This document shows, piece by piece, positions 40,062 to 46,540 of a stretch of DNA of 64,000 nucleotides. The stretch comes from a bacterium (lineage in GTDB: Bacteria; CAIWAD01), in assembly GCA_030429345.1 (NCBI GenBank), contig JAUIFJ010000003.1:122629-186628 (forward strand), written 5' to 3'. The position numbers were made by a program, and so were the translations under genes. The notes under the pieces were generated by a model. It saw nothing but the letters and a program-made list of their open reading frames with translations, did no database searches and was not told the DNA's origin. Numbering within the stretch: position 1 is the stretch's first letter; the number at the start of each line of letters is the position of its first letter.

Positions 40062-40087
40062 GCCGTATCTGATCAAAAAGAACAAGG

Positions 40088-40119
40088 CCCCGCATCCGGT
40101 GGATGCGGGGTCTTTTCTC
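40088..40119 (+). terminator. Intrinsic terminator on the left border of the R-M island
   Basis: CCCCGCATCC (40088-40097) and GGATGCGGGG (40101-40110) form a perfect stem followed by TCTTTTCTC. Its stem and T-run are nearly identical, in opposite orientation, to the terminator at 46481-46515. Confidence 0.9.
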
Positions 40120-40188
40120 TCGGGGGGGGGCAATTTCGTGTTGTCGGAAAAGGGGACGCGCCCTCATCGACGGGGGGACGACCTCTTC

Positions 40189-40380
40189 TGGTTTGATTAC
40201 CGAATTGGGTTGGTTACCGAATCTGGTTTGGTTACCGAATTGGATCGGGTCACCGAATCGGGTTGGTCACCGAATCGGGTTGGTCACCGAATCGGGTTGG
40301 TCACCGAATCGGGTTGGTCACCGAATCGGGTTGGTCACCGAATCGGGTTGGTCACCGAATCGGGTTGGTCACCGAATCTG
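40189..40380. repeat. 17-bp tandem repeat array
   Basis: About seven exact copies of a 17-bp unit TTGGTCACCGAATCGGG from 40263 to 40380, preceded by degenerate copies (TTGGTTACCGAATCTGG type) from about 40189. The last unit runs into the left end of the MITE-like element at 40378. A single related unit (TTTGGTTACCGAATCT) also precedes the element copy at 46059. The unit length is not a multiple of three and no gene crosses it. Confidence 0.9.
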
Positions 40381-40578
40381 CAGGTTTCACCTGCAGCTGT
40401 TTTTGGTCAGCCCTTGCAGGGCTGATTCATTTGTAGGTTGGCAGGCAAGGGATCCGGTGTTTGTGATGCAGATAGCCACGATCGCAGACCTCTGCCCGAT
40501 GGTCTGATTCATCGGACACCTTCCAATCAAACGGCCCTGCAAGGGCCGACCAGAATCAGCTGCATGTGAAACATGCAG
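40378..40578. mobile_element. MITE-like element, copy A
   Basis: 201 bp bounded by the palindromes CTGCAGGTTTCACCTGCAG (left) and CTGCATGTGAAACATGCAG (right). The left about 47 bp and the reverse complement of the right about 47 bp align with few mismatches, including GCCCTTGCAGGGC, giving long terminal inverted repeats. The centre is structured (CCGATG...CATCGG). Two further copies lie at 46059 and 46245. No coding capacity, so a transposase would have to act in trans. The 38-bp array begins at the very next base. Confidence 0.75.
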
Positions 40579-40990
40579 ACCACCGGTTCCCGAACCAACA
40601 CCGGATCCACCCATGGACCACCGGTTCCCGAACCAACACCGGATTCACCCATGGATCACCGGTTCACGACCCAACACCGGATTCACCCATGGATCACCGG
40701 TTCACGACCCAACACCGGATCCACCCATGGATCACCGGTTCCCGAACCAACACCGGATTCACCCATGGATCACCGGTTCCCGAACCAACACCGGATCCAA
40801 CCATGGATCACCGGTTCCCGAACCAACACCGGATTCATTCACGGACCACCGGTTCCCGAACCAACACCGGATCCACCCATGGACCACCGGTTCCCGAACC
40901 AACACCGGATCCAACCATGGACCACCGGTTCCCGAACCAACACCGGATCCACCCATGGATCACCGGTTCCCGAACAATCGCCGGATTGGG
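40579..40990. repeat. 38-bp tandem repeat array
   Basis: Eleven consecutive 38-bp units (starts at 40579, 40617, 40655 and so on to 40959), each with ACCGGTTCCCGAACC and CACCGGAT cores and small variations. The last unit degenerates after about 40975, 20 nt before the stop codon of the Type ISP gene (40996). There are no unique spacers, so it is not a CRISPR array. Confidence 0.9.
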
Positions 40991-40995
40991 TCTGG

Positions 40996-43900
40996 TCAGG
41001 ATGTTCGTTCATTCAATGCCGGCAATCCGGCGACGATGCGGTTGGTCTCCACCGACACCCGTACGACTTTCCGGATCAGGTCGACGATGTAGCGCGGGTC
41101 CTGTTGTTCGCGGCACCAGGCATTGGGATCGTTGCGGATGCCGCTCTTCTTGTCCACGGTCACCTGGTAGCGCTCGAGAATCCACTCGATGGCGGACTTT
41201 CCGTTGACCACGTAATCGTAGGCCTCCAGCGGAATGCCGCTCAGGGTCAGCCGGCTGTTGTAGATGATGCGGGTCTTGTCCCACTTGCGGCCGGCCGCCT
41301 TCTCCTCGGCGCTCGGCCGGGCGAAGGTCATTTTCTTCACCTGGTAGAACTCCCAGGGATCCAGGTCCAGCTGCTGCTTCTCCTCCACCACGGCGGGGTG
41401 CGGCTCCACCGTTTCGTAGTCCACATGCCAGCGCGCCAACTCGCGCCCGGCCTCCATGAAGGCTTCGTAGTCGGCCCGCTCCTGCGTCAGCGGAATCCGC
41501 GGCAGCATCTTCTTCAGATCCGCGGCAAAGCGCCGGCGGTACTCCTCCGAATGGAGGATGCCGTATACATAGTAGAAGATGTCCTCCTTCTCCACGCCCT
41601 CCCCATACACCCGCCGAAACTCGGCCAGGATGCCATCCGTTATCCCCGAACGCCTCCGATAGCCGTCGACAATCTCGACGCCTTCCTCCTCCACGGACAG
41701 ATCCAGTTCCCCACTGGTGGGAGTGGCTTTCTCGTAGACATACAGCGGGAAGCACTGACCCTTTGAAATACACTCAAGGTCCACAATTGAACTAGACATC
41801 AGCACCGAGAATCCTTTTGTAGCACCGATCCCAGTTGTAGCGAACACAAGATTCACGAGTTCGCTTGTAGGATACATCTTGGGTAGTTGATAGGTACGAT
41901 TGTTGAACTGTTGATTGAAGTAGCACGATTGCTTCTGAAAAGGCCGATACATTCCCAACCGTATTCCTTCTGCATCAAACTCCCCACACTTCCCACGGAT
42001 TAGGTCTTCCCTTATCTCATGTGTCCAACTAATCCTCTTGGGGTCATCCAGATAAAACCCATTTGCAAGATCTCTTCGTTCCGCAGAAGGACTCGATTTG
42101 GCAGCAATTTCGAATGCCTCCACTTGCGCGTTGAAAACTTCGATCATCGCCTTCATTCTTGCCGAAAGCGAAGACTCCGAATAATTGTAGCACCAGGCAT
42201 CTCGATTGGTCTTCAGCCCACTCGAGTAAGTCTCGAATACAGAATTCAACTCACTTGATTTTTTGTCGCCAAGTTGAATAAAATTCATAAACGCGGGGTC
42301 TCGCTGGTTGATCCAGTCCGCCTCCGCGTTGGGGTGAATCCGTTGCCATTTCCCTGCGCGCTTCAACCCTTCCAGACTTTGCACTTCGGCAATGAGATCA
42401 AGCTTCTCTGCGCGGCTGAGGTAGTCGCCGATGTCGTGGTAGTACAACTTCCCGGGACCTTTGTGTACCGGGTTTCTAACGAGAATGGAAATGGCGACCG
42501 GAGTGCGCGTGCCTTGGCCGAACACATTGTCTTTCTCTTTGCGCCTCTGCTCACCCGAAGTCCGGGCATTGCCCCGCAAGTTGAAGATGTATACGGACGA
42601 GAACTCATCGGCAAGACATGAACGAAGCCCCGCGCTGGCATTCCCGTCAATGAATGCTCCATTGGTGACGAAGCCAATGACGCCTTGCTTTCCAATGCGA
42701 TCGCTGGCCCAGCGAATGGCGCGGATGTAGGAATCGTACAGGGAGTTTTTGAGTGTGGCCGTCGATCGGGCAGCGTAGGTTTCTGTGATGCGTCGATCGA
42801 GGATCGGGTAGGGCACCGGATTCTCGTTTACCGAGTAGGGCGGATTGGCGATCACCACGCGGATCGGGGCCTTCTTCTGGCGTGTGACGCGTTCGTTGTT
42901 CACTGGGAACATCGCGTCTTCCATGTCGGCCTGCGAACCCGCAGCCTCGGTGAGCTGGAAGGTGTCCGTCAGCACGATGCCGTCGAAAGGGGTGTACTCC
43001 GGAATCGCCGGCGGGGAGCCCTTGCCCTTGCGCTCTGCCTCGAGGGCCTCCTGCCGCAGGGTGTGGAAGGTCTCCTCGATGTTGATCGCGGCGATGTAGT
43101 AGGCCAGCAGCACGATCTCGTTGGCGTGGAGCTCTTCGCAGAACTTGCGCTCCAGGTCCCCGGGGCGGATCAGGCCGCTTTGCAGGAGCCGGGTGATGAA
43201 GGTCCCCGTGCCGGTGAAAGGGTCGATAATGTGCACATCCCTGGCGCTCAGGGAGGAGTGGAACTCCTCGCGGAGCACATCCTCCACCGAATGGAGGATG
43301 AAGTCCACGACTTCGACCGGAGTGTAGACGATGCCCAGTCGCTCGGCCATCTTCTTGAAGGCCGTGGCGAAGAACTTGTCGTAAAGCTCGAGGATCACCT
43401 TCTGCTTGCCTTCGGCGTTGTCGATGCCCGCGGCGCGGGTGCGGACGGAAGCGTAGAATTTCTCCAGGCCGGCCGTCTCCTTCTCGAGAGCCTGGTCCTG
43501 CAGGGCGTCCAGCATGGACTGCATGGCCTGGCTCACCGGATTCAGGTCGGAAAAGGCATAGTCGGCAAAGAGCGCGTCGAAGACCGGCCGAGTGATCAGG
43601 TGTTGGCTCAGCATCTCGATCGCCTCGTCAGAGGAGATCGCCGGGTTGATGTTGCGCCGCAGCCCCCCCAGGAACTGCTCGAAGGCCTTCGCGTGCCGAG
43701 GCTGCCCCTGCTCGAGCAGGAGGCGAATGCGGTCCGTGTGCCGCTGCGCGATGCGTGCCACATCCTCGGCCCACTTGTGCCAGTAGCGGCGCTCCCCGCA
43801 TTTCCGGACAATGCGCGCATAGAGCGCATCCTTCCACTCCTGCAGGTTGTGGAAGAAATCGAAACTCTGCTGCTGCGGCGCGCGCACCTCGGGCGAATCC

Positions 43901-45924
43901 GACTCCGTTCCGGGAAGCCCTCCTTCGCCGATGCCGATCACGCCGATCTGCGAAGGCGCTTTCCTGTTCAATTCGATCTGGTTGATCGTGGCGTTGAAGC
44001 GGTCGTCGTGGGAGCGCAGCGCCTGCAGCACCTGCCAGACGATGGCGTACTTGCGGTTGTCCTTCAGCGCTTCTTCCGGAGCCAGGCCAGCGGGGATGCC
44101 GATCGGCAGGATGATGTAGCCGTACTGCTTGTCCGGCGCCTTGCGCATCACGCGGCCGACGGATTGTACGACATCCACCACCGAGTTGCGCGGATTGAGG
44201 AAGAGCACGGCGTCCAGGCTCGGCACATCCACGCCTTCGGAAAGGCAGCGTGCATTGGAGAGAATGCGGCAACGGTCCGCCGGGCCGGGCTCCTTCAGCC
44301 AGTCCAGCTTGCCGTGGCGCGTCAGGGCATTCATCGTGCCGTCTACATGGTCCAGCTCGACCGACAACAGGTTGGCCTCGGAGCGGTGCTCCCGGCGATA
44401 GGTCGCCACCAGCTGGGCGAAGTACTCGCAGAAGGCCTGCGAATCCTTGATCGAGCGGGAAAAGGCGACCGCCGTGCGCATCGGCGCCAGGTCCCCGTAG
44501 AGCTCGGCCTCGTCGGCCGTCGTGTGATCGAACTTCTTCGCCAGCCCGTTCCAGCAGCCCGTCACGCGCACGGCGTCGTCCAAAGTCAGCGAGTTGTCCG
44601 AGTCCGTGATCTGTTTCTGGAAGGTCTTCGAGGCATAGGCCTCGTCCACCGCGAGCACCAGCACCTTGTAGTCGGTGAGCAGGTTCTTCTCGACCGCCTC
44701 GCCGAAGCCCAGGCGGTGGAACTCGGGGCCGTAGAGCGCCTCGTCGTCCATGGAGCACAGAGTGGCTTCGGCGTCCTCCGCCCGGCCCTTGGTTTCGTCC
44801 CCGTAGACGCGCGGGGTGGCCGTCATGTACAGGCGCTTCGCTGCCCGAATGTAGTCGGCGTCGTGGATGCGGACGAAGTGCGACTCGTCCTGGTCCGACA
44901 GGGTCACGCCGGTCGTGCGGTGCGCCTCGTCGCAGATCACCAGGTCGAAGTCGGGCAGGCCCCGGGCCTGGGCCTCGTGGACAGCGTGGATCGACTGGTA
45001 GGTCGAAAAGAGAACCGTGGTGCCCCGGTTGGTCTTCGATTGCTTGCGCCTGCGGATCTTGCGCTGCAGGGCTTCCCATTGCAACACCAGCGAGCGCGTC
45101 TGCGTCGTCGCCGGAAAGGCCAGGTCCGAGAGATCGATTTCCGCCGTGTCGCTACCCTTGCGTTTCCGTCGTCCGATGTTGGCGTCGGAGCACACCGCCA
45201 GGGCATGAATCGGTTTGCGGGAAAAGGCGGTCCATTCGCGCAGGGTCTGGGCGAGCAGGGCCAGGGAAGGAACCAGGAAGAGGACCGTCCCGCCCAGCGC
45301 AATCTCTTCGGCGATCGCCAGCGAGGTGTAGGTCTTCCCGGTGCCGCAGGCCATGATCAACTTGCCCCGCTCGGATTCCCGGAAGCCCTGTGTCACATCC
45401 TTCAGGGCCTGCAGCTGATGCGGGCGCGGCTCGCGCCTCTTCATGAGCTTGAGCTTGTGGATCGCCTTCAGCGAAAAGGTGGACCAGTCCACGGGCGAGG
45501 CGTCCAGGTCCTGCACGCGGAGCTTCTGGATCGGCTTGCTCTGGTCCTTGATCGTATGGTCTACATTCTTCCCCCACTTGTCCGTGGTGGAAACGATGAT
45601 GCCCGAACTGAACTGCTTCTTGCCAAGCACCGCCAGGAAGGAATCGATGTCCCCCTTGGCCAGCTGATGCTCGGGCAGGAAGAACTTGCACTGGATGCCG
45701 ACGATTTCCCCGGTGGCTTCCTCCTCGGCGACAATGTCGATGCCGATATCGCCGACCTCCCCCTTGCGGGGCCATTCATTCCAGAGCCACACCTTGGAGA
45801 AGCGTTCCGCGTACTGCGGATCAATTTCCAGGTAGCGGACGATCAGTCGCTCGAACCTGTCCCCCAGGTCGCGGTTGTTCAGCGCCGCGTCCCGGAACTC
45901 CGCCAGAATGTCATGGATGCTCAT
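40996..45924 (-). CDS. Type ISP restriction-modification enzyme (nuclease-helicase-methyltransferase-TRD)
   Basis: 1642-aa single-chain R-M enzyme of the LlaGI/LlaBIII kind, which methylates an asymmetric adenine site and, when the site is unmodified, translocates and cuts on head-to-head encounter. Visible order: Mrr-like nuclease (GDIGID, D59/D63; IQCK, Q78/K80); SF2 helicase (Walker A ACGTGKT about 190, DEAH VICDEAHRTTG about 330, QSVGRVMRKAP); coupler; N6-adenine methyltransferase (motif I DPFTGTGTFITRLL about 899; motif IV NPPYS about 1026); target recognition region about 1075-1390; Type ISP C-terminal domain (about 1420-1640). Length is normal and the frame intact. The recognition region is markedly AT-richer. 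No partner gene is needed or present. Confidence 0.93.
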   Translation of the reverse strand: MSIHDILAEFRDAALNNRDLGDRFERLIVRYLEIDPQYAERFSKVWLWNEWPRKGEVGDIGIDIVAEEEATGEIVGIQCKFFLPEHQLAKGDIDSFLAVLGKKQFSSGIIVSTTDKWGKNVDHTIKDQSKPIQKLRVQDLDASPVDWSTFSLKAIHKLKLMKRREPRPHQLQALKDVTQGFRESERGKLIMACGTGKTYTSLAIAEEIALGGTVLFLVPSLALLAQTLREWTAFSRKPIHALAVCSDANIGRRKRKGSDTAEIDLSDLAFPATTQTRSLVLQWEALQRKIRRRKQSKTNRGTTVLFSTYQSIHAVHEAQARGLPDFDLVICDEAHRTTGVTLSDQDESHFVRIHDADYIRAAKRLYMTATPRVYGDETKGRAEDAEATLCSMDDEALYGPEFHRLGFGEAVEKNLLTDYKVLVLAVDEAYASKTFQKQITDSDNSLTLDDAVRVTGCWNGLAKKFDHTTADEAELYGDLAPMRTAVAFSRSIKDSQAFCEYFAQLVATYRREHRSEANLLSVELDHVDGTMNALTRHGKLDWLKEPGPADRCRILSNARCLSEGVDVPSLDAVLFLNPRNSVVDVVQSVGRVMRKAPDKQYGYIILPIGIPAGLAPEEALKDNRKYAIVWQVLQALRSHDDRFNATINQIELNRKAPSQIGVIGIGEGGLPGTESDSPEVRAPQQQSFDFFHNLQEWKDALYARIVRKCGERRYWHKWAEDVARIAQRHTDRIRLLLEQGQPRHAKAFEQFLGGLRRNINPAISSDEAIEMLSQHLITRPVFDALFADYAFSDLNPVSQAMQSMLDALQDQALEKETAGLEKFYASVRTRAAGIDNAEGKQKVILELYDKFFATAFKKMAERLGIVYTPVEVVDFILHSVEDVLREEFHSSLSARDVHIIDPFTGTGTFITRLLQSGLIRPGDLERKFCEELHANEIVLLAYYIAAINIEETFHTLRQEALEAERKGKGSPPAIPEYTPFDGIVLTDTFQLTEAAGSQADMEDAMFPVNNERVTRQKKAPIRVVIANPPYSVNENPVPYPILDRRITETYAARSTATLKNSLYDSYIRAIRWASDRIGKQGVIGFVTNGAFIDGNASAGLRSCLADEFSSVYIFNLRGNARTSGEQRRKEKDNVFGQGTRTPVAISILVRNPVHKGPGKLYYHDIGDYLSRAEKLDLIAEVQSLEGLKRAGKWQRIHPNAEADWINQRDPAFMNFIQLGDKKSSELNSVFETYSSGLKTNRDAWCYNYSESSLSARMKAMIEVFNAQVEAFEIAAKSSPSAERRDLANGFYLDDPKRISWTHEIREDLIRGKCGEFDAEGIRLGMYRPFQKQSCYFNQQFNNRTYQLPKMYPTSELVNLVFATTGIGATKGFSVLMSSSIVDLECISKGQCFPLYVYEKATPTSGELDLSVEEEGVEIVDGYRRRSGITDGILAEFRRVYGEGVEKEDIFYYVYGILHSEEYRRRFAADLKKMLPRIPLTQERADYEAFMEAGRELARWHVDYETVEPHPAVVEEKQQLDLDPWEFYQVKKMTFARPSAEEKAAGRKWDKTRIIYNSRLTLSGIPLEAYDYVVNGKSAIEWILERYQVTVDKKSGIRNDPNAWCREQQDPRYIVDLIRKVVRVSVETNRIVAGLPALNERTS

Positions 45925-46058
45925 GGTGCCTGTCCCGTCAAGTCAATCCACATGCAGTTGTGCCACTGCGATCATGCCATCGCTTCCGCATCTCGTTGTG
46001 CAGAATAATGTTTGCAACGGAAATGCGGGTCACTCCTCTTCCGGTTTGGTTACCGAAT

Positions 46059-46240
46059 CTGCAGGTTTCACCTGCAGCTGTTTTTTGGTCAGCCCTTGCA
46101 GGGCTGATTTATTTGAAGGGGGACTGGCAGGGGATCAAATGTATGTGATGCAAATCGCCACGATCGCAGACCTCTGCCCGATGGTCTGATTCATCGGACA
46201 CCTTCCAGTCAAACGGCCCTGCAAGGGCCGACCAGAATCA
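46059..46240. mobile_element. MITE-like element, copy B (right end truncated)
   Basis: Starts with CTGCAGGTTTCACCTGCAG and follows copy A closely through GGCCCTGCAAGGGCCGACC, but lacks the right-terminal palindrome. It is joined by GAAT to copy C. A 17-bp-array-like unit precedes it. Confidence 0.75.
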
Positions 46241-46244
46241 GAAT

Positions 46245-46446
46245 CTGCAGGTTTCACCTGCAGCTGTTTTTTGGTCAGCCCTTGCAGGGCTGATTCATTT
46301 GAAGGGGGACTGGCAGGGGACCAAAAGTTTGTGATGCAAATCGCCACGATCGCAGACCTCTGCCCGATGGTCTGATTCATCGGACACCTTCCAGTCAAAC
46401 GGCCCTGCAAGGGCCGACCAGAATCAACTGCATGTGAAACATGCAG
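46245..46446. mobile_element. MITE-like element, copy C
   Basis: 202 bp, complete, from CTGCAGGTTTCACCTGCAG to CTGCATGTGAAACATGCAG. It is nearly identical to copy B and close to copy A. Copies B and C form a head-to-tail pair between the start of the Type ISP gene and the histidine-kinase terminator. Any promoter of the R-M gene must lie in or beside this pair (gap 45925-46540). Confidence 0.8.
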
Positions 46447-46480: not shown

Positions 46481-46515
46481 GAAGAGAGAAAACCCCGCAT
46501 CCTGCGGATGCGGGG
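46481..46515 (-). terminator. Intrinsic terminator of the hflK-to-kinase operon
   Basis: CCCCGCATCC (46493-46502) and GGATGCGGGG (46506-46515), followed on the minus strand by TTTTCTCTC. The stem is the same as at 40088-40110. Confidence 0.9.
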
Positions 46516-46540
46516 CCATTGATTTCGTATACGGATCGTC

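Follow-up and report, generated by a model that had tools for sequence, protein, structure and literature searches.

The three repeated elements around a restriction-modification gene in the window, i.e., the whole 64,000-nucleotide stretch of DNA that we analyzed, very probably belong to a REPIN-type family mobilized in trans by a Y1/HuH transposase encoded on another contig (C8) of the same genome. The copies lie at the positions given by the first-pass annotation, one past the stop of the gene and two ahead of its start, and their terminal palindromes match those quoted there. The inverted repeats that it described are also present, but their length had been set too short, at about 47 bp: the arms of copy 1 are 62 nt long, 84% complementary, and separated by 79 nt, and those of copy 3, the other complete copy, are also about 62 nt long. 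The copies and the hairpins of copy 1 are as follows.

40378-40578 (+): element copy 1, 201 bp, an inverted pair of two-hairpin arms (REPIN-like), from sequence comparison and covariance-model matches; in contig coordinates, covariance model R1 places its arms at C9:163004-163066 (+) and C9:163146-163208 (-)
40378-40396 (+): outer hairpin HP1 of the left arm of copy 1 (CTGCAGGTTTCACCTGCAG), with covariation in helix 1
40408-40424 (+): inner hairpin HP2 of the left arm of copy 1 (CAGCCCTTGCAGGGCTG, foot TTGGT), with covariation in helix 2
40532-40548 (-): inner hairpin HP2 of the right arm of copy 1, with covariation
40560-40578 (-): outer hairpin HP1 of the right arm of copy 1 (CTGCATGTGAAACATGCAG), with covariation
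46059-46240 (+): element copy 2, 182 bp, truncated, in tandem with copy 3 (186-bp unit)
46245-46446 (+): element copy 3, 202 bp, complete

Each arm is made of an outer hairpin HP1 (CTGCAGGT-TTC-ACCTGCAG), a linker ending in TTGGT, and an inner hairpin HP2, whose sequence in the window copies, on the left arm, is CAGCCCT-TGC-AGGGCTG. In an alignment of 27 arms from this genome, the two helices have 98.0% of their cells paired, against 22-46% in slid versions of the same alignment. Two-sided changes affect 6 of the 15 pairs and amount to 40 cells, where shuffling gives a mean of 12.0. They are spread evenly, with three pairs in helix 1 (HP1, 97% of cells paired) and three in helix 2 (HP2, 99%). 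As the arms were gathered partly through their similarity in HP2, covariation weighs more here than the percentage of pairing, and it suggests that selection acts on the structure, either as a single strand or as RNA. The full element of copy 3 has a folding energy of -104 kcal/mol (z = -8.5 relative to shuffled sequence), and a search of Rfam with the element gave nothing above chance. The element folds very stably on either strand, which would also suit sequences that the host retains for its own use, be it to terminate transcription or to provide hairpins at the 3' ends of mRNAs between genes. The copies are intergenic and next to separate terminator-like hairpins, as such a role would have it. 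However, the neighboring genes already own hairpins of this type, and the linkage to a Y1 gene described below would be left unexplained. We consider a host function improbable as the account of the family, while noting that it is compatible with mobility.

To study the distribution of the family, we searched this genome, a draft assembly, with a covariance model of the arm (E <= 1e-5). The 38 places found group into about 15 clusters and lie on 7 contigs. There are 12 short inverted pairs, spanning up to about 205 bp, and HP1 is outermost in all of them; the other arms are solitary or in wider pairs. The arms are dispersed, multi-copy, and extragenic as judged by the nearest ORFs, although some mechanically called ORFs overlap them. 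Most clusters adjoin ordinary genes, rpoA, lon, phoX, and genes for histidine kinases among them. A search for an empty site by way of the histidine kinase yielded just distant homologues in relatives (38% and 32%), too distant to be of use. The same model found no arm in 59 other genomes, three of them from the same family; no genome of the same genus turned up among the relatives searched.

When the 201-nt element was used as query, the three window copies were the only full-length matches, and elsewhere the arms alone matched. Elements resemble each other in their middles only if they belong to the same locus. Hence, the genome search with the 200-bp consensus that the first-pass annotation had proposed gives a divided answer: the arms are dispersed, but the full unit with this middle is confined to the window locus, an outcome that the annotation itself had named as speaking against its reading. 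Since middles are common only within a locus, the dispersed unit is a single arm, or else a doublet whose middle varies, as in REPINs, rather than a MITE with a fixed core. The "undescribed MITE" of the annotation is indeed a small element of mobile type, but is better named a REPIN-type family with two-hairpin arms. Two inverted palindromic REPs with a short spacer, which define a REP doublet, are found in the 12 pairs, and their arms covary. By its sequence organization, the family is thus of REPIN/BIME type. We write REPIN-like or REPIN-type, and not canonical REPIN, because the tetranucleotide GT[AG]G was absent from the hairpin feet: the foot of HP2 is TTGGT and that of HP1 is variable. 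This counts to some extent against a Y1-mobilized REPIN-type family, as does the number of arms, 38 being few for a REP family. The REP types of subclass 2.6 and of class 3 also lack the GT[AG]G foot (PMC6006769). We looked for a conserved target 5' of HP1 and found GAAT before several ends; as many other ends differ, we claim no target site.

The elements are non-coding, MITE-sized, and hairpin-ended, and were expected in the annotation to need a transposase supplied in trans. A profile search revealed ten matches to PF01797 (Y1) in the genome, among which one gene carries the same ends as the elements.

G000:C8:76109-76592: Y1/HuH transposase gene of about 160 aa, PF01797 match, on a contig other than that of the window

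This gene is present in a single copy with intact HuH and Tyr motifs, and the arms of the family lie on both of its sides. Upstream, an arm has its HP2 77 nt before the start; downstream, arms are found from +522 relative to the start, with two inverted pairs right after the stop. A single-copy Y1 gene flanked by the family's own repeat is an arrangement of the REPtron type, and on these sequence grounds the gene on C8 is the likely transposase of the family. The same observations bear on a classical MITE derived from a DDE-type insertion sequence, which would have the size and the terminal inverted repeats of these elements. Yet their ends are palindromic hairpins with covariation, the arms are found alone, the middles are not conserved between loci, and matching ends flank a Y1 gene, so that such an origin is extremely improbable. 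If the family is mobilized by the Y1 enzyme, the biochemistry of IS200/IS605 and TnpA-REP (PMC8266576, PMC6006769) suggests how. The enzyme would bind the arm hairpins on single-stranded DNA, probably that of the lagging strand, cut near the hairpin foot, and join the ends through a phosphotyrosine; the doublet would be excised and reinserted without target duplication.

The relation among the three window copies seems to be more local. Copies 1 and 3 can be aligned end to end, with differences mostly in the middle, while copies 2 and 3 are duplicated in tandem, with a period of 186 bp and 97% of positions matching, copy 2 lacking the right outer hairpin. Copies 1 and 2 also share a left flank. 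The sequences next to the copies are as follows (none has an assigned strand).

40199-40378: 17-bp tandem array, 10.5 copies, touching the left end of copy 1
40579-40986: 38-bp tandem array, 10.7 copies, touching the right end of copy 1 (TRF row from 40581)
46035-46058: left flank of copy 2 (CCTCTTCYGGTTTGRTTACCGAAT), 22/24 identical to 40182-40205

The matching segment at 40182-40205 heads the array next to copy 1, and the match scores 38, compared with a maximum of 26 in 2000 shuffles. This common 24-bp flank implies that one side was duplicated from the other, or that the gene entered a duplicated cluster. As the common middle occurs nowhere else in the genome, the three copies would be the product of local multiplication. 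One might thus ask if the whole observation reduces to hairpin-rich intergenic sequence duplicated around the restriction-modification gene, with no mobility involved. The confined middle, the 186-bp tandem duplication, and the shared flank would all fit, but it would be left unexplained why 38 arms are scattered over about 15 clusters and 7 contigs, and why the same arms surround the Y1 gene. Plain duplication, very unlikely overall, fails for the family as a whole, and may hold for the relation among the window copies. Concerning the surroundings, the two arrays around copy 1 (40199-40986) are unrelated to each other and may have grown through slippage at hairpins, and a single unit resembling the 17-bp repeat stands before copy 2. 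Two near-identical, GC-rich, terminator-like hairpins in inverted orientation (40086-40120 and 46483-46517) end the two genes that border the region.

The gene between the copies, and the second gene-bearing locus where copies with a common middle were found, are as follows.

40996-45924 (-): Type ISP restriction-modification gene, 1642 aa, from domain matches, bracketed by the copies
C9:49702-50822 (L028:5703-6823): DUF6364-PIN pair, toxin-antitoxin-like, bracketed by two copies with a common middle

Domain searches bear out the assignment of the bracketed gene to Type ISP (Type_ISP_C, E = 2e-110; ISP_coupler, E = 4e-51; Mrr_cat_2, E = 8e-42). The chain holds nuclease, helicase, coupler, methylase, and specificity domains together, the methylase matches being weak (Eco57I just under and N6_Mtase at the Pfam cut-off). 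The G+C content drops to 46% at 41750-42250, compared with 63-65% in most of the gene. This stretch falls in the C-terminal specificity domain and may mark an exchange of the recognition domain.

The first-pass annotation had suggested that element and defense gene travel as one composite unit. In such a unit, the restriction-modification gene would be mobilized along with two copies of the element (likewise the toxin-antitoxin-like pair on C9), with the Y1 enzyme pairing the left end of one copy with the right end of a second. The two loci are indeed each bracketed by copies that have the same middle and are in direct orientation, 5.7 kb apart around the restriction-modification gene and 1 kb apart around the DUF6364-PIN pair. 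Besides tandem neighbors and the arms around the Y1 gene, these are the sole cases of a common middle, and the 24-bp left flank common to copies 1 and 2 is also in line with a unit. Against it, the genome has no second copy of the bracketed unit, most arm clusters are beside ordinary genes, and PADLOC gave no match among ten neighbor proteins. Moreover, homologues of the restriction-modification gene (51-55% identity) are present in two genomes without arms (G003 and G034). Hence, the suggestion was not borne out: a composite unit is unlikely, and the link between the elements and the gene looks incidental. Either the doublet multiplied or hopped locally around the gene, or the gene entered a cluster of doublets. 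Copies in direct orientation would allow the loss of the gene by recombination. We know of no report of REPINs carrying cargo. Since one toxin-antitoxin-like pair is bracketed in a similar fashion, movement of cargo is nevertheless conceivable.

The gene on C8 is one of five encoding IS200-like Y1 proteins in this genome, and the other four (at loci L047, L048, L049, and L050) have products 34-41% identical to its own. The C8 protein has the motifs DHVH, WQ, and Y..NQ..HH. All five proteins have WQ and Y..xQ..HH, with DHVH in four and DHMH in one, and score above the cut-off of the NCBIfam model for IS200 and below that of REP_Tyr_transpos. A profile of the five proteins has the TnpA of ISDra2 and ISHp608 among its nearest solved structures (E between 1e-12 and 1e-14). 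Each gene is flanked on both sides by hairpin repeats of its own, different from those of the others, and genome-wide counts for two of these further families gave 34 and 25 arms. In the classification of Quentin et al. (2018, PMC6006769), subclass 1.2 of TnpA-Y1 has the motifs DH[IV]H, WQ, and Y---Q--HH and a length of about 148 aa; its hosts are mostly Cyanobacteria and Bacteroidetes, and neither REPs nor properties of an IS were reported for it. Our five proteins would belong to this subclass, an assignment made by motifs and not by a tree with reference sequences. They also resemble it in the conserved C-terminal part and the low copy number, but differ in the hairpin repeats that flank their genes. 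Because the transposase carries its motifs, subclass 1.2 would have REP/REPIN families after all, in this genome and in several other phyla. One of the other four genes, that on C44, sits between direct repeats of about 400 bp. A different, class-2-like Y1 gene (LNPVRA) at L052 (C75:130401-130676) is flanked by repeats in which GACTTTTGTGGC, AAAGC, and GTGCACTGTGAGTAGGAGCGTG occur; segments of this repeat sequence are near arms in L031 (C75:230640) and L032 (C75:260850), and L033 has a related stretch.

We then used the five proteins to search other genomes and identified 80 loci in Planctomycetota, Verrucomicrobiota, Chlamydiota, Bacteroidota, Acidobacteriota, Sumerlaeota, and others, a broader range than the hosts listed in the reference classification. 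The Y..xQ..HH motif is present in 77 of these. A repeat between the two flanks (upstream-versus-downstream score of at least 70) was found in 51-53 of the 76 loci with enough flank, depending on how flanks were trimmed, whereas among 328 pseudo-gene control sites taken from the same contigs only 7 (2%) have one. Among 51 such repeats, 34 are inverted and 17 direct, and 45 have at least two hairpins, with a mean of 2.8 compared with 0.65 in shuffled sequence. Three hairpins with TAGC ahead of the middle one are common among them, and 24 have TAG at the foot of a hairpin. Three of the four outside genomes tested have dispersed repeats: a genome from the Tannerellaceae gave 59 matches, inverted pairs among them, one from the Chlamydiae gave 13, and Aeoliella gave 7. 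The fourth, from the Verrucomicrobiota, has no dispersed family and just two matches, both at the Y1 gene, which argues somewhat against the REPIN-type reading. In the genome of L062 (G060), units of about 730 bp bounded by inverted repeats occur at C18:226977-227714 and C29:31593-32319, the latter possibly a further copy of the Y1 unit.

Several known systems resemble this one in part. REPINs with their RAYT/TnpA-REP (Bertels and Rainey 2011, PMC3116915) are likewise inverted palindromic doublets with a variable spacer, mainly extragenic, with a distinct single-copy Y1 gene per repeat family and clusters beside it. However, they have one hairpin per arm with a GTAG foot, more copies, and a class 2 protein (Y...NP), whereas the arms here have two hairpins and the protein is IS200-like (Y..NQ..HH). 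TIRtrons (Di Nocera et al. 2013, PMC3733652) also have Y1 genes flanked by inverted repeats, with self-complementary tracts possible and families of moderate size, but their TIRYT proteins are mostly of subclass 2.1 according to Quentin et al. IS200/IS605 elements share the HuH/Y1 fold family and the hairpins near the ends; in our case the transposase gene is not multi-copy, the ends mostly lack a gene, and the proteins within the genome are as divergent as given above. Finally, the BIMEs of E. coli, mosaics of REPs, are alternating inverted REPs between genes but differ in hairpins and in Y1 subclass.

REPINs and Y1-linked repeats are thus already known. What appears new, in the open-access papers searched, is the link to subclass 1.2, the arms with two to three hairpins, and the five families in one genome; later work on this subclass did not turn up among these papers. 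It is well supported that the Y1 proteins of subclass 1.2 form a lineage of their own among repeat-associated transposases, running multi-hairpin REPIN families across several phyla. The broader proposal, in which pairs of these elements can also move or shelter cargo such as the restriction-modification gene and the toxin-antitoxin-like pair on the same contig, is based for its cargo part on two loci and, taken as a whole, is improbable. Subclass 1.2, whose role was open in the reference classification, would gain a substrate: family-specific multi-hairpin arms, both around the gene and dispersed. This extends REPIN-type families to bacteria far from the Proteobacteria, where REPINs have mainly been studied, and a genome with five pairs of Y1 gene and repeat is a natural set for the study of co-evolution between enzymes and their repeats.
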